A stretch of 64,000 nucleotides of DNA from Arenicola marina (Eukaryota > Annelida > Polychaeta > Arenicolidae), in the NCBI GenBank assembly GCA_964019135.1, contig OZ025258.1, forward strand, positions 29,072,186 through 29,136,185, read 5' to 3'. This document shows, piece by piece, positions 1 through 58,800 of the stretch (position 1 is its first letter; each line of letters opens with the position of its first letter). Position numbers and translations under genes: made by a program. Below the pieces are notes generated by a model that saw only the letters and a program-made list of their open reading frames with translations, made no database searches and was not told the origin of the DNA.

Positions 1-500
1 CAGTTAGAGCTCCGTCACCATATACAGGTCAGTTAGAGCTCCGTCACAATATACAGGTCAGTTAGAGCGCCGCCACAATATACAGGTCATTTAGAGCGCC
101 GCCACAATATACAGGTCAGTTAGAGCGCCGCCACAATATACAGGTCATTTAGAGCGCGGCCACAATATACAGGTCATTTAGAGCGCGGCCACAATATACA
201 GGTCAGTTAGAGCGCGGCCACAATATACAGGTCAGTTAGAGCGCCGCCACAACATACAGGTCAGTTAGAGCGCCGCCACAATATACAGGTCATTTAGAGC
301 GCGGCCACAATATACAGGTCATTTAGAGCGCGGCCACAATATATAGGTCAGTTAGAGCGCGGCCACAATATACAGGTCAGTTAGAGCGCGGCCACAATAT
401 ACAGGTCAGTTAGAGCGCGCCGCCACAATATACAGGTCAGTTAGAGCGCCGTCACAATATACAGGTCAGTTAGAGCGTGGCCACAATATACAGGTCAGTT
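1..500. repeat. 29-bp minisatellite carrying donor-like CAG/GTCAGT
   Basis: About 17 near-identical units of 29 bp (a few 31), each of the form CAGGTCAGTTAGAGC followed by a GC-rich stretch and CACAATATA. Units alternate between gcgccgcc and gcgcggcc versions, which suggests several expansion rounds. The array starts before the window. It lies upstream of the first visible SANBR exon, so it is probably intronic. Most units contain CAG/GTCAGT, a good match to a 5' splice site. Confidence 0.95.
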
Positions 501-981: not shown

Positions 982-1047
982 GTGTGCGGCGTGCAAGAGG
1001 TTGATGACGAAAAACATTGAAGGAAAAGTCAAGTGTCTTCACAACAG
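982..1047 (+). CDS. SANBR: SANBR exon a (first visible)
   Basis: Acceptor GTGGACAG and donor CAACAG/GTGAGT. It encodes CAACKRLMTKNIEGKVKCLHN, which parallels the CCLCKKLLTKE region of the vertebrate protein. It enters with one base of a split codon and leaves with two, matching the next exon. It is short (66 nt), and its call rests on homology plus phase. Confidence 0.85.
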
Positions 1048-4000
1048 GTGAGTGGAGAGAAAAGTGGACTGAGTTGTCGAAGGACACCCTTCACTCTGGT
1101 CTTCATGTGTGATATCCACTGTCAGTGTCTGCTGCCTATCGTGGTCACTTTTACTTGAAAACTTCTATCTCAAAAAAATCTATCTTAATAATAGACGGAT
1201 GCGCTTCGATTTTAATCACATTTCCTTTAACTTTAGATGGTCAGGTTTCAGCTACTCACCTGTTGTTAGCACCTAACCTGAAGCATATACTTTTTTCCGC
1301 ATCCAATTCATGTTTTATTTAAATTATGAAAAAAAAGCTACTACGTCAAGGAACAACTTCTTGAAACAAATCTCGTTATGTCCTTAATTTGACAGACTCT
1401 CGGTGAACTCTCGCGGGAAGTTGGTGTACCGCCACGTGCGTGACATGACGTGGGACGTGAACGCCTACCTGCTGGAGCTGAAGGGCGAGCTGAAGACTTG
1501 GCGCGAGATCTACTGGCGTCTGTGGGGTCAGGTGAACGCGCTGCCGTGCGCGCGCTGCGGGGAGGTCTTCCCTTGCGCCGAGCTGGGCCACTGCCGCTAC
1601 CACCCGGACCACGTGGTCTACGAGGACAGCATGGCCGCCGTCAGCCGGGGCGCCGTTGGGGAGTTCCCGTGCTGCCAGCTCAGGGTGCTGCGGTTCGACC
1701 CCACGCAGCCCAACAAGGTGTGTAATGATTGACGTCACTGACCCCACACAGCACAACAAGGTGTGTAATGGTTGACGTCACTGACCCCACGCAGCCAAAC
1801 AAGGTGTGTAATGATTGACGTCACTGACCCCACGCAGCCAAACAGGGTGTGTAATGATTGACGTCACTGACCCTACACAGCCCAACAAGTTGTGTAATGA
1901 TTGACCCCACGCAGCCCCAACAAGGTGTGTAATGATTGACCACACTGACCCCACACAGCCCGCCAAGATATGTAATGATTGACCCCACCTAGCCAACCAA
2001 GTTGTGTAATGATTGACCCCGCCCAGCCATACAAGGTGTGTAATGATTGACCACACTGACCCCACACAACCCAACAAGATATGTAATGATTGACTCCACC
2101 CAGCCATACACGGTGTGTAATGACTGACCCCACTCCGCCCTACAAGGTGTGTAATGACTGAGCTCTCACAGCCCAACAAGATGTGAAATGATTGACCCCA
2201 CGCAGCCCAACCAGGTGTGTAATGATTGACCACACTGACCCCACACAGCCCACCAAGATATGTAATGATTGACCCCACCCAGCCCAACAAGTTGTGTAAT
2301 GATTGACCCCATTCAGCCATACAAGGTGTGTAATGATTGACCACACTGACCCCACACAGCCCAACAAGATATGTAATGATTGACTTTACCCAGCCATACA
2401 AGGTGTGTAATGACTGACCCCACTCCGCCCTACAAGGTGTGTAATGACTGAGCCCTCGCAGCCCAACAGGTTGTGTAATGATTGACCCCATACAGCCCAA
2501 CAAGGTGTGTAATGGTTGACCCCACTCAGCCCCACAAGGTGTGTAATGATGGGCCTCACCGACCAAACAACCCAACAAGGTGTGTAATGATTGACCCCAT
2601 ATAGCCAACAATGTGTGAAATGATTGACCTGACACTGCCCAGCAAGGTGTATAATGATTGGCCCCACCCAGCCATACAAGGTGTGTAATGATTGACCACA
2701 CTGACCCCGCACCTACCCCACACAGCCCAACACACTTCGATACTTATGGGAAGCATGTCAGAAAGGTCAAAAAGCGTCGAATGTAGGTATGAGCTGGATG
2801 AGCGGTTGGCGTTTATATTTATTTTGTGTCAAAATTAATATATGTAACCCGAAATGGGCTTCGGATAACCTGGTCGTTGGTTCGCGCCCTGACATCTGCA
2901 TGAGAGACGTGTTTCATCCAAACCTGTCTCGTCCCTGGAGGTGTGTCGACGCGGCTTGGTCTTCACGGGCACAACAGTTATTGAAAAATATTGAGGATTT
3001 TTTTTTTTTATATATACATGTTTTTAAAATATTTATTTCACACTGGACAGATTAACAATACTTCAAGACAGGTTAATAAAACATCAACTTCTTTTCAACT
3101 GAAATGTGGCACTAAATCCTCCCATGTTCCCATGATGGGTAGTCCGTACTCTCCCCAAGATGATATTCCATGCGGTAGTTTCACTTCTCTCTTCTGTGTC
3201 CTCCGTGACAGGGCTGCAAAGTGCGCGACCACGTGGTGACCTTGGCTGAAGGTGACTCCAGTGATGTCAGACAACAACAAGTGTACAACGACCTGCTGGC
3301 ACACCGTGACGTCATCTGTGTTCCCTACGAACCTGCGGAAACCGAGTGAGTCCTGCTGGCCAACTGGCCCTTCTAGCGGGTCGTTCTGATATGCTACCGT
3401 CAACTATTGGTTGATAATAGCTCACTTATTACTCGTGACCAGCATGTATTTCACAAGTCTATTTTGCTAACATGGTTGGAAGAGTGTTATCCTTAATCCG
3501 CATTCTAATTTGTTTACTTCAGTTACACGGAATATAATCTGTTTTGCTGTTACGTGGAATATATTTCACACACTATTATATTGCTCAGATCTGGAAATAA
3601 AATGGTCATCATGACATTAGCTTTAAAATACGGCCACATTGTTCGATTAATAACATTCTTTGTACGGTCAAGGTGTTTTGTGCTCTCGCATCGACATGAG
3701 TATTTATCAAACTGTGTTTGATTCCTCTTCCCTTGGCACCCCCCCACCCCTTCCCTCTGCCCCGCCCCCCCGCCCCCCATCCTCCCTTCCCAGGGATCCC
3801 GAAGTGGATGTGTTCGGCTCAGAGGACACATCCGTGACGTCACCACAGTCTGCGGTGACGTCACGCAGCAGCCTGACGTCATCAGCCGTCACCACGGAGG
3901 AGAGCGCCAAGACAGAGGTGAGGGGTGGGGACGGGCGTGCCACGTGGTAGTAACTACTTCATTGATGAATAAATCACGAAATCAATAATTGTAACAAAAG

Positions 4001-7000
4001 GCACGGAGATGAGGACTTACACGTTAGCTGTAGTGAAACGCTCATTCGTATTACCATGTTAACATTATATACTACTAATAAATATATATAACTCTTTTGA
4101 TTTCATTGGTGTTTTGCAGCACTTTGAGCCTGTGAGGCTATATCAGGCCTTTAACAATTATGATGACACAATTATTAATTGCGGATGACTTCCCACATTA
4201 TTCTCTTAATCTAATTAATATATTTGTACGCTTCACACACTTTATTTCCCCCATGATCCACGACCGTGCCTGGTTGTGTTGCTCGTATCCAGACGCGTCC
4301 TCAAGGTCGGCTCCAGGCCCTCACCGTCTCCAGAGAACTCTCCCACGAGACGGACTTCGGCGTCGGCGAGAGCGATGACGAGGTGGGCGACGAGGAGGAT
4401 TCTGGGAAAGGCAAGTATCAAATGACCTTGACCTTTGTAAACCTGTTAATGATCTCGTACATTCTGTGGGATTATGTTGATTTTTTTTTTAACTGAATCT
4501 TTTTATTTATTTCACATTTTATATGTTTTTATTGAGAAACGCCCGGGTACATAAGACTGAACCATTGTGGCTTTTGACTAGCGAATGTAGAGGGTACTTA
4601 TTATAAAGCAAAAATTGAAAATCGGCATTATCCCCAGGGGTACTCGAACCCAGGAGCCTTGTATGTATGGACTACACATTAACCGTGGACCATTAATTCC
4701 CTTGTCTGACTGTCATTGTGACGTAACAATGGGATCCTGTTTCCGGCAGGTCGCAAGGGTCGAGGTGGCCGACGAACCCTCATCACCGTGGACCCACAGG
4801 CAATACTGCTTGGGGCTCCGGACTTCAGGTGAGGACCACTCACCTCCCCCCACCCCGCTCACCCCCACCACACCACCATCCCCCCGCTCTCTCCCTCATA
4901 TGTACCAGTTTTGGGAACTTCCCCAACCCCCGTTGTAAAATTCGAACCTCCCTTCCAAGAGTTGCTGGGAACGTCATTGGACAATCATTGATCTTCGTGC
5001 TATGTGTTTCCAGCCAATATTATTTAAATTAATATATGTAATATATTTATTATATATTCAGCGTTGTTCTTGTATTCCGCCTATAGTACGACATATATAC
5101 AGATTATGATATGATAACACAATTAACTTAATCGTGAGAACAGCGGAGATTTGTTGCTTGGTAGATTAATTTTCACAGTTCTCTTTAACTTAACAGGATT
5201 CTCTGTTTTCAGTATATTTATTTATAAATGTTAGTGCTAGTAGAAGCGTACCTTAAGTATTTAAGTACCTTAAGTGAGCCTACATTTGACTTCTGACTGG
5301 TGTCACTTGCAGCATGACTAAGACAGGGAAGTGGGACTCGAGTCGCTCCATGAGGTGGAACCAGGACGCCCAGCGCGAGGAAGGTAATGGGGGGGGGGGC
5401 GCTAACCTGGAGGAATGTAATGGGGGGGGCGCTAACCTGAAGGAAGGTAATGGGGGGGGGCGCTAACCTGGAGGAAGGTAATGGGGGGGCGCTAACCTGG
5501 AGGAAGGTAATGGGGGGGGGGCGCTAACCTGGAGGAAGGTAATGGGGGGGGGGGGCGCTAACCTGGAGGAAGGTAATGGGGGGGGCGCTAACCTGGAGGA
5601 AGGTAATGGGGGGGGCGCTAACCTAGAGGAAGGTAATGGGGGGGGCGCTAACCTGGAGGAAGGTAATGGGGGGAGCGCTAACCTGGAGGAAGGTAATGGG
5701 GGGGGGGGCGCTAACCTGGAGGAAGGTAATGGGGGGGGCGCTAACCTGGAGGAAGGTAATGGGGGGAGCGCTAACCTGGAGGAAGGTAAGGGGGGGGGGC
5801 GCTAACCTGGAGGAAGGTAATGGGGGGGGCGCTAACCTGGAGGAAGGTAATGGGGGGGGGGCGCTAACCTGGAGGAAGGTAATGGGGGGGGCGCTAACCT
5901 GGAGGAAGGTAATGGGGGGGGGGCGCTAACCTGGAGGAAGGTAATGGGGGGGGGCTCTAACCTGGAGGAAGGTAATGGGGGGGGCGCTAACTTGGAGGAA
6001 GGTAATGGGGGGAGCGCTAACCTGGAGGAAGGTAATGGGGGGGGCGCTAACCTGGAGGAAGGTAATGGGAGGGGCGCTAACTTGGAGGAAGGTAATGGGG
6101 GGAGCGCTAACCTGGAGGAAGGTAATGGGGGGGGGGGGCGCTAACCTGGAGGAAGGTAATGGGGGGAGCGCTAACCTGGAGGAAGGTAATGGGGGGGGGC
6201 GCTAACCTGGAGGAAGGTAATGGGGGGGGGGCGCTAACCTGGAGGAAGGTAATGGGGGGGGGGGCGCTAACCTGGAGGAAGGTAATGGGGGGGGGGCGCT
6301 AACCTGGAGGAAGGTAATGGGGGAGGCGCTAACCTGGAAGAAGGTAATGGGGGGGGCGCTAACCTGGAGGAAGGTAATGGGGGGAGCGCTAACCTGGAGG
6401 AAGGTAATGGGGGGGGCGCTAACCTGGAGGAAGGTAATGGGGGGGGGGCGCTAACCTAGAGGAAGGTAATGGGGGGGGGGGCGCTAACCTGGAGGAAGGT
6501 AATGGGGGGAGCGCTAACCTGGAGGAAGGTAAATGGGGGGGGGCGCTAACCTGGAGGAAGGTAATGGGGGGGGCGCTAACCTGGAGGAAGGTAATGGGGG
6601 GGGCGCTAACCTGGAGGAAGGTAATTGGGGGGGGCGCTTACCTGGAGGAAGGTAATGGGGGGGGGCGCTAACCTGGAGGACGGTAATGGGGGGGGAGCTA
6701 ACCTGGAGGAAGGTAATGGGGGGGGCGCTAACTTGGAGGAAGGTAATGGGGGGAGCGCTAACCTGGAGGAAGGTAATGGGGGGGGGGGCGCTAACCTGGA
6801 GGAAGGTAATGGGGGGAGCGCTAACCTGGAGGAAGGTAATGGAAGGGGGCGCTAACCTGGAGGAAGGTAATGGGGGGGGGGCGCTAACCTGGAGGAAGGT
6901 AATGGGGGGGGGGGGCGCTAACCTGCAGGAAGGTAATGGGGGGGGCGCTAACCTGGAAGAAGGTAATGGGGGGGGCGCTAACCTGGAGGAAGGTAATGGG

Positions 7001-10000
7001 GGGGGGGCGCTAACCTGGAGGAAGGTAATGGGGGGGGCGCTAACCTGGAGAAAGGTAATGGGGGGGGCGCTAACCTGGAGGAAGGTAATGGGGGGGGGCG
7101 CTAACCTGGAGGATGGTAATGGGGGGGGGCGCTAACCTGGAGGAAGGTAATGGGGGGAGCGCTAACCTGGAGGAAGGTAATGGGGGGGGCGCTAACCTGG
7201 AGGAAGGTAATGGGGGGGGCGCTAACCTGGAGGAAGGTAATGGGGGGGTGGGGCGCTAACCTGGAGGAAGGTAATGGAGGGGGGGCGCTAACCTGGAGAA
7301 AGGTAATGGGGGGGGCGCTAACCTGGAGGAAGGTAATGGGGGGGGGCGCTAACCTGGAGGAAGGTTATGGGGGGGGCGCTAACCTGGAGGAAGGTAATGG
7401 GGGGGGGCGCTAACCTGGAGGAAGGTAATGGGGGGAGCGCTAACCTGGAGGAAGGTAATGGGGGGGGGGCGCTAACCTGGAGGAAGGTAATGGGGGGTGG
7501 CGCTAACCTGGAGGAAGGTAATGGGGGGGGCGCTAACCTGGAGGAAGGTAATGGGGGGGGGCGCTAACCTGGAGGAAGGTAATGGGGGAGGCGCTAACCT
7601 GGAGGAAGGTAATGGGGGGGGCGCTAACCTGGAGGAAGGTAATGGGGGAGGCGCTAACCTGGAGGAAGGTAATGGGGGGGGGCGCTAACATGGAGGAAGG
7701 TAATGGGGGGGCGCTAACCTGGAGGAAGGTAATGGGGGGGGGGGCGCTTACCTGGAGAAAGGTAATGGGGGGGGGCGCTAACATGGAGGAAGGTAATGGG
7801 GGGGGGCGCTTACCTGGAGAAAGGTAATGGGGGGAGGCGCTAACCTGGAGGAAGGTAATGGGGGAGGCGCTAACCTGGAGGAAGGTAATGGGGGGGGCGC
7901 TAACCTGGAGGAAGGTAATGGGGGAGGCGCTAACCTGGAGGAAGGTAATGGGGGGGGCGCTAACATGGAGGAAGGTAATGGGGGGGGCGCTAACCTGGAG
8001 GAAGGTAATGGGGGGGGGGGCGCTTACCTGGAGAAAGGTAATGGGGGGGGCGCTAACATGGAGGAAGGTAATGGGGGGGGGCTAATCTGGAGAAAGGTAA
8101 TGGGGGGGGGGGCGCTAACCTGGAGAAAGGTAATGGGGGGGGGCGCTAACATGGAGGAAGGTAATGGGGGGGGGCGCTTACCTGGAGAAAGGTAATGGGG
8201 GGAGGCGCTAACCTGGAGGAAGGTAATGGGGGAGGCGCTAACCTGGAGGAAGGTAATGGGGGGGGCGCTAACCTGGAGGAAGGTAATGGGGGAGGCGCTA
8301 ACCTGGAGGAAGGTAATGGGGGGGGCGCTAACATGGAGGAAGGTAAGGGGGGGGGCGCTAACCTGGAGGAAGGTAATGGGGGGGGGGCGCTTACCTGGAG
8401 AAAGGTAATGGGGGGGGGCGCTAACATGGAGGAAGGTAATGGGGGGGGGCTAATCTGGAGAAAGGTAATGGGGGGGGGGGGGGCGCTAACCTGGAGGAAG
8501 GTAATGGGGGGGGGGGGGCGCTAATCTGGATGAGCAACAGCAGAAAGCCCGGTTGGTGTGGCGATGTTCGGCGTATTTAGGCCCGAATGCATGATGATAT
8601 AACTTTACTCCATGATTTAAACATAAGTTACGAACGCTTCTTGATAAAATCAAAACTGGACTCCCCACTTTTCATAAAGTCTTGCTGTTAATTGTTTGAC
8701 CGGTGGCCGTTAACGTGAAGCATCAAGCACACATAGAACGAAAAGCAATTTGCTTAAATGTTGTTTAATATACATAAGTGCAGAAATGTGAGTTTCCCCT
8801 TGGTCCATTGGCATCAAGTTTTATGCCGACATATGCTGGGATACATAAACAATTCTGAATGCCTATCATCTACCGTAGACCAGAGAAGAATGACTGAGAT
8901 GGTAAACTACTTGACCAAGCTGAGGGCCAACTCTGAGAAGATGGAGCGACTGAGACAGAGAGAGGTCAGTTATTGGTCATATATTCTATATATCGTGGAC
9001 ATCTCGGGGACATGGACGTGCAAAACGAAGATGGCCGACATTACTCTTCTCGGTATTAGATTTGTTCAGCTCTTTGCTCTACTTGAAGAACATTTATTAT
9101 GAGTAGTAGTTCATATACCTTTTTATATTTTGGGTACGAATCTTATGTTTTGGATGAAAATACCACATGTATATAGAAATAACTGAAAACATGAAAGTAC
9201 TCGTGAAGATCTCAATCTGTTTAAAGTCACATTTACCGGTTTGTATGGCGCTGCAGATCAAAAGGTCGCGGGTTCGCACCCTGGCAGCTGTATCTGGGGC
9301 ATGTTTTATCGAGCTGTCCCGGGAGGTCGCGGCACAACTTAGCCATGTGCACAGAAGCGGCCTGGGGCCGCCTCGATAGCTCAGTGGGTTAGATCGCTCG
9401 CCTTGGGTGCTCCGGCCACCTGCGAGCCTAACGTACGATGGTTCGACCCCGCTGTGGCCATGTCTGTGCGGTCGCTGGATAAAGATCCCATGTCATTCTT
9501 CGCAAAGAGTAGGGGGATACCCCCGGGGACATGGCTCCATTCTCCCTTCCTTCTCCCATTGACGCGATATGACAAAAAGTGGTTAAAGCGCCTTGAACTT
9601 ACGACCAACAACCAACCAGAAGCGGAAGTAAGACGCTAACGTTGTCATTGCAGTGTGCTGGAGGTGTGTTTGTCCGACTCGAGGCTCAGTGGAAGGCAGT
9701 TCATCTACCGACCGCCAAGCCTGGTGGCGCCCCCCTTAGGTCAGTCGGGGCTTCCCGCCCACACCGGCGCCATCTAATGTAAATGAGATGAGTCAATCTG
9801 ATGAAAAAAGGTCGATGACCGTCACAATGTCGAATATTAAGCGACATAATGAAACTACGCCACCATAATCTCGATTCTGACTATATTTCAATACGACTCT
9901 TTTACTTACTGTCACATGATATGCGATCGGTTCCACCCGATTTCTGAAACAATGTCGTCTGCACCAGCATACATACCTATCTCAAATATTGTTCATTTAC

Positions 10001-13509: not shown

Positions 13510-14115
13510 CGTGCTGCTGGTGAGTCGTCGTCAAGGCGACGCGCCGCACCACGTGTTCAGACGGCGCCTCTCCCCTTCTTTCGGTCCCCACCATGACATC
13601 CCAGGGACCGGTTGCAGAAGTTTACCTATGATATGGAGGGGGGGGGGGCTTAAATAATTGACACAGTGGGTCTCTTTCAAACCCGAGGGGCTGGAGTTGG
13701 GGTGGAAGAAGGGAGGGGGATGACGGGATGTACGCCCTATTAGCCATCAGCTTTCAGGTAGGGGGGGCGGGGGAGGTTAGCGACTGGATCCACCATAGAC
13801 CCCGCCCATACCCCTCTATGGGGATGTGTGTTACCTCCCTGCTGCCCCCCCCCCCCACTACCCCACGTGCCTGGGTGTCCCCCCCCCCACACTCCCCCTC
13901 GTGCCTGGGTGTATGGCGCCCTCCCGTCATATCAGTAATCCTACTCATCCTGGAATGAGTATGGCTTTATGTAAACGGTGGGCATACATCACAAAAGCTA
14001 AATTAACGTTTCTGTGCCATCCACTCATCTTAGGCTCTTCCACAGCTCCATCTCCGCTCGCTCCATGTGACCAATATGAGTAAGCGGGCCACCCAGCGGG
14101 GGACTGGGGAGGAGT
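13510..14115. other. No gene seen; C-run-rich spacer
   Basis: Contains a G11 run (about 13638-13648) and two C-rich runs near 13846 and 13880 followed by a repeated GTGCCTGGGTGT. Confidence 0.5.
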
Positions 14116-14119
14116 ACCA

Positions 14120-15905
14120 TTCAGCTATCCATCCAGCCTGCCATCCAGCCTGCCATCCAGCCATCCAGCCAACCATCCAGCCTGCCAGCCTGCCATCCAG
14201 CCAACCATCCAGCAAACCATCCAGCTTGCCATTCAGCAAACCATCCAGCCTGCCATCCAGCCTGCCAGCCAGCCATCCAGCCAACCATCCAGCCTGCCAT
14301 CCAGCCAACCATCCAGCTTGCCATTCAGCAAACCATCTAGCCTGCCATCCAGCCATCCAGCCAACCATCCAGCCTGCCATCCAGCCTGCCATCCAGCCAA
14401 CTATCCAGCCAACCATCCAGCCTGCCATCCAGCCAACCATCCAGCCTACCATCCAGCTTGCCATCCAACCAACCATCCAGCCTGCCATCCAGCCTGCCAT
14501 CCAGCCAGCCATCCAGCAAACCATCCAGTCTGCCGTCCAGCAAACCATCCAGCCTGCCATCCAGCCTGCCATCCAGCCAACTATCCAGCCAACTATCCAG
14601 CCTGCCATTCAGTCAACCATCCAGGTTGCCATCCAGCGAACCATCCAGCTTGCCATCCAGCCTGCCATCCAGCCAACCATCCAGCCTGCCATCCATCCAA
14701 CCATCCAGTCTGCCATCCAGCCTGCCATCCAGCCTGCCATCCAGCCTACCATCCAGCCTGCCATTCAGCCTACCATCCAGCCAACCATCCAGCCAACCAT
14801 CCAGCCTGCCATCCAGCCTGCCATCCAGCTTGCCATCCAGCCAACTATCCAGCCAACCATCCAGCCTGCCATCCAGCTTGCCATCCAGCAAACCATCCAG
14901 CCTGCCATCCAGCCTGCCTGCCTGCCATCCTGCCATCCAGCCAACCATCCAGACTGTCATCCAGCCTGCCATCCAGCCTACCATGCAGCCTGCCATCCAG
15001 CCTACCATCCAGCCTGCCATCCAGCCTGTCCTCCAGCCTGTCATCCAGCCTGCCATCTTGCCATCCAGCCAACCATCCAGCCAGCCATCCAGCCTGTCAT
15101 CCAGCTTGCCATCCAGCCTACCATCCTGCCATCCAGCCAACCATCCAGCCAACCATCCAGCCTGCCATCCAGCCTGTCTTCCAGCCTGCCATCCAGCCTG
15201 TCATCCAGCCTGCCATCCTGCCATCCAGCCAACCATCCAGCCTGCCATCCAGCCTGCTATCCAGCTTGTCATCCAGCCAACCATCCAGCCTGCCATCCAG
15301 CCTGTCATCCAGCCTGCCATCCTGCCATCCAGCCAACCATCCAGCCTGTCATCCAGCCTGCCATCCAGCCTGTCATCCAGCCTGCCATCCTGCCATCCAG
15401 CCAACCATCCAGCCTGTCATCCAGCTTGCCATCCAGCCTACCATCCAGCCTGCTATCCAGCTTGTCATCCAGCCAACCATCCAGCCTGCCATCCAGCCTG
15501 TCATCCAGCCTGCCATCCTGCCATCCAGCCTGCCATCCAGCCTGCCACCCAGCCAACCATCCAGCCTGCCATCCAGCCTGCCATCCAGCCAACCATCCAG
15601 CCAACCATCCAGCCTGCCATCCAGCCTGTCATCCAGCCTGCCATCCAGCAAACCATCCAGCCTGCCATCCAGCCAACCATCCAGCCTGCCATCCAGCCTG
15701 CCACCCAGCAAACCATCCAGCCTGCCATCCAGCCTGCCATCCAGCCTGCCATCCAGCCAACCATCCAGCCTGTCATCCAGCCTGCCATCCATCCTGCCAT
15801 CCAGCCAACCATTCAGCTTGCCATCCTGCCTGCCATCCAGCCTGTCATCCAGCCTGCCATCCAGCCTACCATCCAGCAAACCATCCATCTATCCATCCAT
15901 CCATC
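14120..15905. repeat. 1.8-kb minisatellite of 12-bp units
   Basis: Units CCATCCAGCCTG and CCATCCAGCCAA, interspersed with CTTG, TCAT and CCTGCCATCC variants. Because 12 is a multiple of 3 and the units lack stops in most registers, five or six frames stay open for hundreds of codons (the longest about 675), giving [16 protein letters not shown] and SSLPSSQP-type products. It grades into a CATC microsatellite at 15885-15903. Confidence 0.97.
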
Positions 15906-17644
15906 TTGGAATCTACCCTGTCATCTATCCATCGTTCCATACCGTCATGGAATAGGCCACAATACATACATTCCATTCCATGCCATATCAACCGGCGATT
16001 GCAGCTCACTGCAGCGAGTACTTGTCATCGTAATATGTGTCTCGGTCAATCTGCCATGTCGTGTGGTGCCTTCGTGTCATGCAATGTAATATAACATAAT
16101 ACATGCACGCGGCATGACATTACCATGGCATACTGCCATGCATTCTCCAATCTCTAGTACCTGCCAACCCATCACCGGTGACGATATCACTTCCATCATA
16201 ATCCCCTGCCCTTCCCTTGTTAAAGCAGTGTCCATCCTATTTAAATCACCCCTATTTCCCCACCCCCCTCCCAGCCACCCAAGCGCACCCTCACCTCATC
16301 CTGCCCCACCTCAAATGCACCCAGCCACCCAGCCACCCCCGTACATACCCCGGCCGCTTGGTTCACGACATGTGACGGTGCAAGCCAGAACAGGACTGCC
16401 GTTCCCGGTGCTCACCCATCTGTCTTCACCCCCACCGTGGCCACCCCACCGTGGCCACCCCTCGACCCGTCACTGACGGAACGTTACATCGACGCGTGTG
16501 TCCGCTGCGGCTGCAGGCGAAGTCTTGTCCACCAGGCACGGCATAGCTTATCCCGGGAGTGGCGACCCCCCCCCCCCCCGCGGGGGGTGTGAGGGGGGGG
16601 GGGTATAGGTTCTGAAATTGCAGGGGTTGTGGCTGGGGGATCTGAGCTGCAAGGGGCGGGGCGTGACCTGGGGGTGCCGGGGGAGGGGTGTATCAGAGCT
16701 CGCGGAGGAAGGAGGCCCCGTACACCGAAGAAGCTGGGTCGCTAGGGAAGGAAGGGAGGAGGAGGAGGGGACGGTGGGGAGGACGGTACCGGGACGAGGA
16801 TGGGGATAGAGAGATATACGCAAGGCGGGGGTGTGGAGAAGGGGGAGGAGGGGATGTCACCGCACTGGAGTATCTTGAGGCCGTATTGACGTTCGTATTG
16901 GCCATGCAGCCAAGCCAGCCAAGCCCAGCCAAGCCCAAGCCCAAGCCTAGGCCAGGGCCAGGGCTGGAGCCTGGGCTTGGGGCCGGGCCGACTGCCCGTA
17001 TAAGGACGGACCTCAGCCTTGTATTCAACGCTGCCATTCAGAGCCACGTCTAAGCGACATACGGTGAGGCGCCGCGGCCATCACTGCGTGCGGACCGCGC
17101 ACGGCGAGAAAACCTTTAGGGGAGGTCCTGCTGACCGTGATTCTTGTTATTTATTGATAACACCCCGACGCCGCCGTTACGCCCAAGGGATACCGGGATG
17201 TTTTTTTAAGCCACTGTTGTGCACACATAGGCCAGAAGAAACGGTCCCAGACACTGCGCCTCAGGAACAGTCGGACTGATGCAGCACGCTATGTGACGTC
17301 ATTAATACCGTGATGCTCCCGATGTTTAGGGGTCCGGAATAGGGGGGGGGGGTGTCCAATTTCGATTTTTCTAAATTCTCAGTGTCGAATGTCAATTTTT
17401 GGTTCAGTGTTTTTTTTTTTAATTGGGGGTCATTTCGCCATTTACATCTTCAAGACCACTATACTTTGTTTGACCGGGGATAACCACAACCATTCACAAA
17501 GTACTATATTAAGCGACCCAGAAAATTTGATGGCTCTTTGCTCATCATCGTCGGTCAAATAATACAAAATATTCACGCCGCTATCAATTTCATTAGCCAA
17601 ATTCATGATGAGGCAAGAGGGAAATTTGGCTAACGTTATTCAGG
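15906..17644. other. No gene recognised
   Basis: Holds a C13/G10 pair near 16567-16603 and a CCAAGCCCAAGCC / GGCTTGGGG imperfect inverted repeat at about 16910-16983. Nothing else supported. Confidence 0.5.
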
Positions 17645-18242: not shown

Positions 18243-20131
18243 GAGCGGTAATACGCTCTACCACTCGACCACTGAGCCAGGCGTGGTTCGAACCGGGGAC
18301 GTGTCGCTGTGAGGTCGAGCGCTCTACCACTCGACCACTGGGCCAGGCGTGGTTCGAACCGGGACCTGTCACTGTGAGGTCGAGCGCTCTACCACTCGAC
18401 CACTGAGCCAGGCGTGGTTCGAACCCGGGACCTGTCGCTGTGAGGTTGACCGCTCTACCACTAGACCACTGAGCCAGGCGTGGTTCGAACCCGGGACCTG
18501 TCGCTGTGAGGTCGAGCGCTCTACCACTCGACCACTGGGCCAGGCGTGGTTCGAACCGGGACCTGTCGCTGTGAGGTCGAGCGCTCTACCACTCGACCAC
18601 TGGGCCAGGCGTGGTTCGAACCCGGGACCTGTCGCTGTGAGGTCGAGCGCTCTACCACTCGACCACTGGGCCAGGCGTGGTTCGAACCGGGACCTGTCGC
18701 TGTGAGGTCGAGCGCTCTACCACTCGACCACTGGGCCAGGCGTGGTTCGAACCCGGGACCTGTCACTGTGAGGTCGAGCGCTCTACCACTCGACCACTGG
18801 GCCAGGCGTGGTTCGAACCGGGACCTGTCGCTGTGAGGTCGAGCGCTCTACCACTCGACCACTGAGCCAGGCGTGGTTCGAACCCGGGACCTGTCGCTGT
18901 GAGGTTGACCGCTCTACCACTAGACCACTGAGCCAGGCGTGGTTCGAACCCGGGACCTGTCGCTGTGAGGTCGAGCGCTCTACCACTCGACCACTGGGCC
19001 AGGCGTGGTTCGAACCGGGACCTGTCGCTGTGAGGTCGACCGCTCTACCACTCGACCACTGAGCCAGGCGTGGTTCGAACCCGGGACCTGTCGCTGTGAG
19101 GTTGACCGCTCTACCACTAGACCACTGAGCCAGGCGTGGTTCGAACCCGGGACCTGTCGCTGTGAGGTCGAGCGCTCTACCACTCGACCACTGGGCCAGG
19201 CGTGGTTCGAACCGGGACCTGTCACTGTGAGGTCGAGCGCTCTACCACTCGACCACTGAGCCAGGCGTGGTTCGAACCCGGGACCTGTCGCTGTGAGGTT
19301 GACCGCTCTACCACTCGACCACTGGGCCAGGCGTGGTTCGAACCCGGGACCTGTCGCTGTGAGGTCGAGCGCTCTACCACTCGACCACTGGGCCAGGCGT
19401 GGTTCGAACCGGGACCTGTCGCTGTGAGGTCGACCGCTCTACCACTCGACCACTGAGCCAGGCGTGGTTCGAACCCGGGACCTGTCGCTGTGAGGTTGAC
19501 CGCTCTACCACTAGACCACTGAGCCAGGCGTGGTTCGAACCCGGGACCTGTCGCTGTGAGGTCGAGCGCTCTACCACTCGACCACTGGGCCAGGCGTGGT
19601 TCGAACCGGGACCTGTCACTGTGAGGTCGAGCGCTCTACCACTCGACCACTGAGCCAGGCGTGGTTCGAACCCGGGACCTGTCGCTGTGAGGTCGAGCGC
19701 TCTACCACTCGACCACTGGGCCAGGCGTGGTTCGAACCCGGGACCTGTCGCTGTGAAGTCGAGCGCTCTACCACTCGACCACTGAGCCAGGCGTGGTTCG
19801 AACCCGGGACCTGTCGCTGTGAGGTCGAGCGCTCTACCACTCGACCACTGGGCCAGGCGTGGTTCGAACCCGGGACCTGTCGCTGTGAGGTCGAGCGCTC
19901 TACCACTCGACCACTGAGCCAGGCGTGGTTCGAACCCGGGACCTGTCGCTGTGAGGTCGACCGCTCTACCACTCGACCACTGGGCCAGGCGTGGTTCGAA
20001 CCCGGGACCTGTCGCTGTGAGGTCGACCGCTCTACCACTCGACCACTGGGCCAGGCGTGGTTCGAACCCGGGACCTGTCGCTGTGAGGTCGAGCGCTCTA
20101 CCACTCGACCACTGAGCCAGGCGTGGTTCGA
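18243..20131 (-). repeat. 66-bp tandem array of a tRNA-like (SINE-head-like) unit
   Basis: About 28 units of 65-66 bp. Read on the minus strand, each contains TGGTCGAGTGG (fits the Pol III A box TRGYNNANNNGG) and, about 43 bases later, GGTTCGAACC (B box), the spacing found in tRNA genes. The flanks GGCTCAGTGG and GCCTGGC resemble an acceptor/D arm. The anticodon arm does not fold well, so these are tRNA-derived rather than working tRNAs. Variants alternate (gagcc/gggcc; gtcgagcg/gttgaccg) in blocks of about 197 bp, showing higher-order copying. The 22-codon open frame (VERSTTRPLSQAWFEPGTCR) is a by-product. Confidence 0.93.
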
Positions 20132-55594: not shown

Positions 55595-55864
55595 CTGCGC
55601 ATGCGCAAGATGCGGTGCCGTCAACGGTCATACAGTCGAGCACCTCTGAGGTGGCTCCGGGTGACAGCTTCAACGTCAGTTGCCGAGTGTCCAACCTGAG
55701 AACGCCAAACTTCTTCCGCCTGGAGAAGTATCAGGCTGGAAGCGATATCCCTGTGGACCTCATGACCAATGGGTTCCTGGTGGAATCGGTCCGGGTAATC
55801 GATAGATACAGCGGAAGCCATGCAGCAGATGGACTCGTGTTCGTCTTCACCTTCCATGTCAAAG
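55595..55864 (+). CDS. Ig gene exon 2, start of mature protein and first half of Ig1
   Basis: Acceptor TGTTCGCAG, donor GTCAAAG/GTGAGT, phases 1 and 1. Encodes [25 protein letters not shown] and FVFTFHVK. Reading past the donor stays open into the 29-bp array, but the donor is strong. Confidence 0.9.
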
Positions 55865-58800
55865 GTGAGTTCATGTCATTCAGACCATGGAGTCCATCGT
55901 CGCATGCATATATAGATTATATATTACATCAAGCAAGACTACCACAGATATATTACATCAAACCAGACCACCGCCGATATATTATATCAAACCAGACCAC
56001 CACAGATATATTATATCAAACCAGACCACCACAGATATATTACATCAAACCAGACCACCGCCGATATATTATATCAAACCAGACCACCACAGATATATTA
56101 CATCAAACCAGACCACCGCCGATATATTATATCAAACCAGACCACCACAGATATATTATATCAAACCAGACCACCACAGATATATTATATCAAACCAGAC
56201 CACCGCAGATATATTATATCAAACCAGACCACCACAGATATATTATATCAAACTAGACCACCCCAGATATATTATATCAGACCAGACCACCGCCGATATA
56301 TTATATCAAACCAGACCACCACAGATATATTATATCAAACCAGACCACCACAGATATATTATATCAAACCAGACCACCACAGATATATTACATCAAACCA
56401 GACCACCGCCGATATATTATATCAAACCAGACCACCACAGATATATTATATCAAACCAGACCACCACAGATATATTACACCAAACCAGACCACCGCCGAT
56501 ATATTATATCAAACCAGACCACCACAGATATATTATATCAAACCAGACCACCACAGATATATTATATCGAACCAGACCACCACAGATATATTATATCAAA
56601 CCAGACCACCACAGATATATTATATCAAACTAGACCACCACAGATATATTATATCAAACCAGACCACCACAGATATATTATATCAACCCAGACCACCACA
56701 GATGTATTATATCAAACCAGACCACCGCAGATATATTACATAAAACCAGACCACCGCCGATATATTATATCAAACCAGACCACCACAGATATATTACATC
56801 AAACCAGACCACCGCCGATATATTATATCAAACCAGACCACCACAGATATATTATATCAAACCAGACCACCACAAATATATTATATCAAACCAGACCACC
56901 GCAGATATATGATATCAAACTAGACCACCCCAGATATATTATATCAAACTAGACCACCCCAGATATATTATATCAAACCAGACCACCACAGATATATTAT
57001 ATCAAACTAGACCCCCACAGATATATTATATCAACTCAGACCACCGCAGATATATTATATCAAACTAGACCACCACAGATATATTACATCAAACCAGACC
57101 ACCGCAGATATATTATATCAAACCAGACCACCCCAGATATATTATATCAAACTAGACCACCCAAGATATATTATATCAAACCAGACCACCCCAGATATAT
57201 TATATCAAACCAGACCACCGCAGATATATTATATCAAACCAGACCACCGCAGATATATTATATCAAACCAGACCACCGCAGATATATTATATCAAACCAG
57301 ACCACCGCAGATATATTATATCAAACTAGACCACCACAGATATATTATATCAAGCCAGAACACCACAGATATATTATATCAAACTAGACCACCACAGATA
57401 TATTATATCAAACCAGACCACCGCAGATATATTATATCAAACTAGACCACCACAGATATATTATATCAAGCCAGAACACCGCAGATATATTATATCAAGC
57501 CAGATCACCACAGATATATTATATCAAACCAGACCACCACAGATATATTATATCAAACCAGACCACCACAGATATATTATATCAAACCAGACCACCGCAG
57601 ATATATTATATCAAACTAGACCACCACAGATATATTATATCAAACCAGACCACCCCAGATATATTATATCAAGCCAGACCACCACAGATATATTATATTA
57701 AACCAGACCACCGCAGATATATTATATCAAATTAGACCACCCCAGATATATTATGTCAAACCAGACCACCACAGATATATTATATCAAACCAGACCACCA
57801 CAGATATATTATATCAAACCAGACCACCGCAGATATATTATATCAAACCATGGCGTTGCAAGGACAACTGAAGAACGAACCTTAAAGTACGCACGCATCG
57901 ATCACACATATTTGTTCCAAGTAATTGAGCGGGTAGATTAATCACTACTTCGTGGAAAATCTGTCCAGTTCTACACTGTATGTTCTATCCACAGCTTTAA
58001 TTTGTTGGTTGGTTGGTTTAATAAGTAGAACGGTGTAATCGCTGTAGCTCCTATCGCGACAAAGGGACGGGTCAAGGTAGAGCGAAGCCATGTCTCTGGG
58101 GGGTAGGCTTTGCGAAGAAGGAGTTTATACATTTATCATGGACAAACATATAGACATGTGCCCAGGTGAGATTCGAATCACCCACCGGCTGGTTGGGATA
58201 TTCTAGCAGAGTACACTGGAAATAGTGGAGCTCTGCCAGATGACCGTCATACCCTGCCCGCGTTGTGTTAATGATTAGCGTTGTAACGGATGTGACGGTC
58301 TTGCCCCGCAGATGCCATGGTGGAAGATGCCGGGGCGTACGCGTGCACTGTGTTCGGCAGCAACGTGAGGGTGGTCACCAGCAAACGACACGCCATCGAC
58401 GTCATCGGTGAGTGCTTACGACGTCCACGTGGAGGAAGTCACGTGACTGAACACGTGATTGCCCTTAGGCGCGAGCCAACTAACAGTTTTTTTCCCCATT
58501 TTATTAAATTTTTCATCCGTGGAATCAGTGTATTGTAATAAAAACGTTAATAATCGAAAATAGAAAAGAAATGATAATAAATTAATAATGAAGAACATAG
58601 CTACGGTAATGGCAACATCCGAACAATGACTGTTACTATGGTAGCCATACTCATTCGTGACTGCTAATTAATTACCAATATCGACAAACACATATAGTAC
58701 GGCCATGTATGCATCTGTCCATCCATCCATTCATCCACACGTGCATCCATCCATCCACACGGTCCTTCATCCAGCCATCCATTCAGTCGTGAATTCATTC

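Follow-up and report, generated by a model that had tools for sequence, protein, structure and literature searches.

Why should an intron open with about a hundred copies of its own 5′ splice site? The question is raised by a locus of the polychaete Arenicola marina (assembly GCA_964019135.1), which lies in a stretch of 64,000 nucleotides of contig OZ025258.1 (positions 29,072,186 to 29,136,185 of the forward strand), hereafter called the window. The element in question, A4, is a minisatellite seated on the donor of exon L in a gene that, by its predicted protein, is SANBR (KIAA1841)-like. An earlier note, made from the letters of this DNA alone, had read it as a G-rich array of decoy donors. 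A4 is an exon-boundary minisatellite, a type of repeat called a mirage in lancelets; in our view it was probably born and grew in an ordinary way and was filtered by splicing.

Open frames and splice signals served to map the exons across the window and 20 kb upstream of it, with exons B-F placed by eye. The assembled exons match the Pfam family BTB_SANBR (SANT and BTB domain regulator of class switch recombination) with E = 1.4e-34 over residues 2-89, a match that falls on the upstream exons. Exons L and M presumably belong to the same gene, given the continuous frame and the human sequence. No solved structure matched the assembled exons at E 0.01. The gene names KIAA1841 and SANBR appear in PMC8141524.

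A minisatellite that spans the donor of exon L

Tandem Repeats Finder (TRF) places A4 at 5377-8513, with a period of 30, 101.7 copies and 91% matches. The head-to-tail consensus is GAGGAAGGTAATG(G run)CGCTAACCTG, and the 102 units fall into 41 kinds. Counted over 5377-8530 with the real junction included, GAGGAAGGTAATG occurs exactly 80 times, AAGGTAA 98 times and AAGGTAATG, the 9-mer of the real exon L donor, 94 times, in agreement with the roughly 95 identical donors reported earlier. With a donor weight matrix, 101 donor-like sites score at least 5 bits and 98 at least 7 bits; the real donor scores 7.5. G runs of 5 or more number 101 and are 5 to 14 long (mode 8, in 32 of the 101), and unit spacing scatters over 29-36 bp. 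A4 is far beyond chance. It is also unique to one locus as far as the 19-mer GAGGAAGGTAATGGGGGGG shows, since all 58 exact matches to this 19-mer in the 867-Mb assembly fall within A4 and the reversed pattern has none. A single copy of the locus was found in this one assembly.

The first unit takes in the last 6-7 bases of exon L (5377-5383). Because the repeated unit holds these exon bases, A4 spans the junction and does not start at it, contrary to the idea that the array begins exactly at the first intron base; the span of 5384-8525 given at that time marks a real array that in truth extends from 5377 to about 8530. The intron after exon L occupies 5384-8878, and A4 fills about 90% of it.

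At 5383 the open frame of exon L runs on into exon M (G/AC, ...QREE-D-QRRM...), which bears out the exon end proposed earlier. The same frame fits a donor at any A4 copy in frame with 5383/5384. Copy 2 (GAATGTAATG) is without its AG, and the next good copy lies 63 nt downstream. An in-frame stop stands 80 nt beyond the real donor, so that read-through is possible at most into the copies at +33 (AG lost) and +63, and use of most later donors would truncate the protein. The variable-length NLEEGNGG-type peptides once expected from this array are thus mostly impossible, with at most the first two downstream copies readable. Most likely, the copies are unused intronic sequence and the protein is normal.

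How the array grew can be read in part from the order of its units. A run of 7 units recurs without change 12 units downstream (Table 1), whereas the longest recurring run among 200 shuffles of the unit order was 4 units. The 5 units that follow each run contain 1 identical pair only. The recurrence of a 7-unit run at such a distance means that A4 grew at least partly by blocks. The units had also been considered as tiny introns or steps of recursive splicing, since most of them contain CTAAC, a pentamer resembling a branch point (93 occurrences), shortly before the next AAG/G; this idea was dropped, as there is no pyrimidine tract and the spacing is too short.

Four unrelated arrays in one gene

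Donor-spanning arrays are found on 4 of the 13 donors traced in this gene (exons A-M), namely those of exons A, E, G and L (A1 to A4). Their units are unrelated, and two of the arrays (exons A and E) begin upstream of the window. At a threshold of period at least 14, at least 4 copies and at least 150 bp, these are the only arrays from exon A to exon M, and none in that stretch spans an acceptor. Below the threshold there are two-copy repeats at window 3046-3087 and, inside exon E, at L040:7632-7680 in the block upstream of the window. The A2 unit is made of 22-24 exon nt and 5-7 intron nt.

The array near 1718 (A3) had been credited with an origin independent of A4, and this is upheld, the units being unrelated; two further unrelated arrays sit on donors of the same gene. 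Its geometry is of the same kind, and A3, like A4, starts inside its exon, at 1697 in exon G, 21 nt before the donor. The SANBR-like gene was reached through its arrays and so is not an unbiased sample.

Donors and acceptors in a repeat-blind sample of exons

A sample of exons taken without regard to repeats was obtained from a genome search for the kinesin motor family. Of the 133 matches, 5 with in-frame TAA/TAG on small contigs were excluded; the 128 matches on main contigs were put in random order, and the first 40 were analysed with 250 bp before and 320 bp after each. Arrays were called by TRF at a period of at least 14 and at least 2.7 copies (lenient) or at least 4.5 copies (strict).

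The 40 regions hold 18 arrays, 12 of which start near or past the 3′ end of the match, and in 8 of these 12 the unit takes in or touches the donor (Table 1). Donor-spanning arrays thus accompany 6/40 matches at the strict threshold and 8/40 at the lenient one, against 0/40 for acceptor-spanning arrays (Fisher two-sided, p = 0.026 for 6 vs 0 and p = 0.005 for 8 vs 0). The acceptor of L089 has a two-copy duplication, and the array of L091 overlaps the match start by position, yet on reading ends 10 nt before the acceptor. The donors examined number 40 at most, since 5 of the matches are without a donor scoring above 4 near the match end, some of them perhaps being last exons or relics.

A baseline was taken from five random 20-kb blocks (L045-L054), again with arrays of period at least 14. 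They contain 33 array stretches that cover 37.9 kb of 100 kb (37.9%), which makes this a very minisatellite-rich genome. Array starts occur in these blocks at 0.53 per kb of non-array sequence, a rate at which 0.96 donor-spanning starts would be expected (40 x 45 bp) vs the 6-8 seen (Poisson 5e-4 and 7e-6). Coverage by arrays around the kinesin matches is 6-8/40 at the exon end, 8-10/40 at +100 to +200 and 1-2/40 within 100 nt before the exon. The GC content is 0.573 in exons, 0.424 in the 5′ intron flank, 0.566 in arrays and 0.464 in other random DNA. This small sample suggests that donor-spanning arrays are frequent in this genome, at the front ends of introns.

Further examples came from other parts of the assembly. 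One of the five random blocks holds a SANT-domain exon (Pfam PF00249, 3.9e-6) whose donor, GAG/GTGGGT, opens a 54-bp array of 11.4 copies. A genome pattern of three successive donors gave 4521+10407 matches vs 2750+3381 for the reversed pattern; we took no number of arrays from these figures, as one long array is hit many times and the reversed control is itself high. A Pfam-matching exon precedes 2 of the four arrays first listed by this pattern (L041-L044), the analysed stretch falling short of the array start in L041 and L043. One such exon encodes part of an aldehyde dehydrogenase (Pfam 7.1e-8; L042, G000:C1:604000-613900) and is followed by a 39-bp array with 167 units after the first; its donor reads ACAT/GTAAGT in 34 copies and ACAG/GTAAGT in 109, out of about 168 units. 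The other exon, cysteine-rich and lustrin-like, matches Pfam at 1.9e-4, which misses the curated cut-off, and has a 34-bp array. We take the SANT-domain exon to be RCOR-like. An exon of random block R4, which we take to be calsyntenin-like, has an array that looks long-unit and runs into N, and was left out of the count.

Genome searches for the GFP, sialyltransferase and mollusc haemocyanin families gave 0 matches here and none in control genomes, and the kinesins were found exon by exon by the same kind of search. The first two results would make a lancelet an unlikely source; the haemocyanin result carries little weight. The aldehyde dehydrogenase and kinase families were set aside as exon samples, since matches were too few or the top ones mostly intronless. 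On small contigs such as C330, C390, C443, C465, C504 and C536, kinase and kinesin matches carry in-frame TAG/TAA and no TGA, as in the ciliate code; such contigs probably represent a ciliate contaminant or symbiont in the assembly. Along G000:C3, at about 14-57 Mb, protein-kinase matches occur by the dozen, each in one open frame of about 300 codons and many with near-equal scores; they make up an expanded and apparently intronless family. The 5′ flanks of L071 and L058 have arrays with donor-like units (GCTGTGAGT; AAGGTTAGT/AAGGTCAGT) in the preceding intron, perhaps derived from the preceding donors.

Unit phase and period were compared in 14 arrays, 8 from the kinesin sample, 4 from the SANBR-like gene and 2 from the triple-donor pattern. 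Exonic lengths and base periods were set by hand, as automatic periods were doubled for A1-A4 and L093, and the automatic reading was 4 nt off for A2. Base periods range from 29 to 62 bp, and 12/14 are not multiples of 3. The exonic share of the unit is 3-92%, with a mean of 55%, and its distribution does not differ from uniform (Kolmogorov-Smirnov p = 0.21, n=14); such scatter in the position of the donor argues against cutting at a fixed site.

Birth, growth and a proposed filter of splicing

The reading that we favour has three steps. First, a chance tandem duplication of about 30 bp would have happened to span the 5′ splice junction. Second, as the contrast between donors and acceptors suggests, this duplication would have been tolerated, the exon-proximal donor, which is transcribed first, still being used and the other copies becoming intron. 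At an acceptor, a duplication of this sort would bring repeat units into the mRNA were the first acceptor chosen, and selection would remove it. Third, the array would have grown neutrally to about 100 copies through duplication of blocks of several units, by unequal exchange or a similar process, of which the 7-unit run is a visible trace, together with slippage in the G runs. Neutral growth fits the spread of cut points, the frame-breaking periods, the unremarkable donor columns of five arrays and the stop beyond the donor. The same process would act elsewhere in the genome and lengthen introns from their 5′ ends. A filter of this type explains the donor/acceptor polarity. It is not enough to account for array starts being 6-8 times as dense at donors as in random DNA, for which a second factor beyond tolerance is needed. 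A candidate is a greater tendency to duplicate, either of GC-rich exon edges or of active donors.

A more general proposal can be made tentatively, and we put it at somewhat below even chances: that genic minisatellites of this genome arise mainly at 5′ splice sites, with about one donor in six amplified and acceptors hardly ever. The asymmetry would be the trace of a rule by which the first donor transcribed wins, as does the first acceptor transcribed; under it donor duplications would be neutral and acceptor duplications harmful, and introns would grow at their 5′ ends in a ratchet that turns one way only.

Several observations weigh against the filter as a full account. The excess of starts is larger than tolerance predicts, and intron interiors should tolerate arrays equally. 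Arrays cover donors no more often than they cover positions farther into the intron or random DNA (37.9%), and only array starts are enriched. The 0/40 acceptors are in line with the roughly 1 expected at random, the kinesin sample is small and drawn from one protein family, and 38% of random DNA already lies in arrays. Use of the first donor is argued from the reading frame. Finally, in the lancelet globin gene BflGb6 it is the acceptor boundary that is duplicated, and reverse transcription polymerase chain reaction (RT-PCR) suggested regular splicing (PMC3087553), from which it follows that an acceptor filter is not absolute.

The excess of starts is what an unlikely but serious alternative would predict: that the active 5′ splice site itself raises the rate of duplication, through U1 binding, polymerase pausing, R-loops or strand breaks, so that arrays are seeded by mechanism and not by tolerance. 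At donors, array starts reach about 6-8 times their rate in random DNA, and the sense strand has a clearly positive G skew in 10 of 15 donor-spanning arrays. In the other five, the skew is about zero (3) or negative (2), and the donor, spread over 3-92% of the unit, marks no fixed cut point. The splicing filter and donor-driven birth can both be partly true.

That the arrays fell on donors by coincidence is improbable, even in a genome where 33 array stretches take up over a third of 100 kb of random DNA, where arrays cover donors no more than positions farther into the intron, and given that lancelet mirages occur at both boundaries (PMC3087553). Some donors would be hit anyway, but 6-8 donor-spanning starts vs 0.96 expected in 40 kinesin matches are too many, and 4/4 arrays of the SANBR stretch sit on donors; SANBR was not chosen blindly, and the kinesin sample was.

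A selected function, in which the copies strengthen exon definition, hold U1 or provide graded alternative exon ends, is very improbable. It would fit the 94 occurrences of the donor 9-mer, the GT intact (first copy excluded) in 202/202 cells of A4 and in 774/778 over five arrays, and donor columns that are less changed than others in A2 and A4 (Fisher 0.002 each; A4 without G-run columns). Over five arrays, by contrast, the donor window ranks 33/40, 17/29, 5/30, 2/39 and 8/34 among all unit windows of the same length, with no consistent pattern. The copies are moreover not independent, because of homogenisation; 12/14 periods break the frame, and in A4 the stop follows 80 nt downstream. In the copies of these five arrays, donor columns show neither purging nor retention, with no consistent difference from other columns, and a decoy role is likewise not borne out.

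Least probable of all is that slippage of G runs or R-loops drive A4, as first proposed: its 101 G runs and GC skew of 0.60 favour the idea, and slippage can account for the 29-36 bp scatter of unit spacing, but in the three sister arrays, which share this geometry and lie in this gene, the longest G runs are 4, 2 and 3 and the skews 0.24, 0.00 and -0.19, the copied 7-unit run is not a product of single-run slippage, and among the 15 donor-spanning arrays, only A4 has G runs longer than 6 and a G-rich non-template strand is not a common feature, so that the idea fits A4 alone and G runs or R-loops are not supported as a general cause.

Relation to known boundary repeats

Exon-boundary minisatellites are already known from lancelet mirages and from a human variable number tandem repeat (VNTR) of 31 bp in CBS, and A4 belongs to that kind. 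What is new is the presence of four unrelated donor arrays in one gene, the rate at kinesin donors against no acceptor, and a pattern of uniform-looking cut points, frame-breaking periods and donor columns neither purged nor kept. No report of a genome-wide rate or of a donor/acceptor comparison was recognised in a literature judged mostly by title and start of abstract, with few subscription papers covered.

In the lancelet report, mirages are tandem repeats over exon-intron boundaries of Adh3 and of the globin genes BflGb6 (acceptor) and BflGb9 (donor); they are possibly more general in cephalochordates, are unstable in length, and left splicing undisturbed by RT-PCR (PMC3087553). Further examples are TnC and PGBD5 (PMC3902484). 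As in A4, the unit spans the boundary and many copies bear splice signals, and the 30-bp unit of A4 lies within the 10-72 bp range given for the Adh3 mirage (PMC3087553). Lancelet mirages were described gene by gene and at both boundaries, with copy numbers that are small in the cases given (3 and 6 in haplotypes of BflGb6), whereas the genome that hosts A4 has about 100 copies in one array, four arrays in one gene, and arrays on 6-8/40 kinesin donors and on no acceptor.

The human CBS VNTR, c.1444_1467+7(16_21), comprises 24 exon and 7 intron nt by its formal name and has 16-21 copies (PMC2630376). Each of its units carries the donor, and the geometry of A2 is nearly equal to it; it differs in being one human locus with fewer copies than the arrays here. 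This VNTR is reported to affect splicing; a link to enzyme activity is the subject of work by Lievers in 2001.

Tandem repeats at boundaries are also described as a source of introns, in human paralogues (PMC2812944) and, by tandem duplication with splice signals, in a potato RdRp gene (PMC4974935). A4 shares with these cases a repeat that carries splice signals; it differs in that no new intron or exon appears, A4 lying, as we read the frame, in one intron between exons that join. In an earthworm metallothionein gene, minisatellites are reported in introns and not at the boundary (PMC12783039).

Should amplification reach about one donor in six, for the most part at one side of the intron, such arrays would be a major source of intron length. 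They would further offer many natural tests of how the spliceosome chooses among dozens of identical donors and of the role of transcription order, as well as a standing supply of AG/GT-bearing repeats for intron gain.

Features of the window and minor observations

Table 1. Coordinates of the arrays and exons discussed (window positions unless a block is named)
Feature	Position	Strand	Description
A4, donor-spanning minisatellite	5377..8530	+	some 102 units, each about 30 bp long: 6-7 nt of exon end, donor, G run, CGCTAACCTG
7-unit run	7755..7967	+	213 bp; identical recurrence at 8123-8335, 12 units (368 bp) downstream
Second copy of 7-unit run	8123..8335	+	identical to 7755-7967
Exon L (exon g of the earlier note)	5313..5383	+	ttgcag/CATGACT ... 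GAGGAAG/gtaatg; frame continues into 8879-8964
Real 5′ splice site of exon L, AAG/GTAATG	5384..5389	+	reading-frame continuity; donor score
Exon M	8879..8964	+	ccgtag/ACCAGA...AGAGAG/gtcagt
Exon A array	L040:5264-5829 (upstream of window)		40 bp, 14 copies
A2, exon E donor array	L040:7678 (inside exon E, ...ESAATIYR/) to window 500; 3′ end 1..500	+	29 bp, 97 copies, ...ATACAG/GTCAGT
A3, exon G donor array	1697..2712	+	period 34-43 with longer-order repeats; 21 nt of exon end plus donor
Exon F (CAACKRLMTKNIEGKVKCLHNR)	982..1047	+	gtggacag/GTGTGC ... CAACAG/gtgagt; frame continuous with exons E and G by eye
Exon G	1396..1717	+	3′ end CCCAACAAG/gtgtgt
Exon H	3212..3345	+	
Exon I	3794..3917	+	
Exon J	4293..4410	+	GC-type donor GGGAAAG/gcaagt
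Exon K	4750..4828	+	
Strict donor-spanning kinesin arrays	L056, L058, L067, L079, L082, L093		periods 37, 55, 32, 49, 52 and 62 bp in that order; at least 4.5 copies, 26-48 exonic nt
Weaker donor-spanning kinesin arrays	L065, L073		2.7-3.6 copies, 1-2 exonic nt
Kinesin arrays starting elsewhere in the 3′ flank	L087, L091, L092, L094		

Scans of the window with Rfam at gathering thresholds and for tRNAs gave no match. By eye, a tRNA-derived sequence that resembles a short interspersed element (GCCTCGATAGCTCAGTGGGTTAGATCGC...GGTTCGACCCCG) lies at 9343-9620, in an intron of the SANBR-like gene. Three further arrays of the window stand apart from those above. At 14034-16094, a 12/24-bp CCATCCAGCCTG array of about 150 copies keeps a frame of 686 codons open, and at 18254-20131 there is a 66-bp array of 28.6 copies, the unit of which resembles a tRNA-like stretch (GTGGTTCGAACCCGGGACC). 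At 55624-57850, an exon that looks Ig-like by eye is followed by a 29-bp array of 66 copies, which starts about 140 bp past the donor and does not include it.

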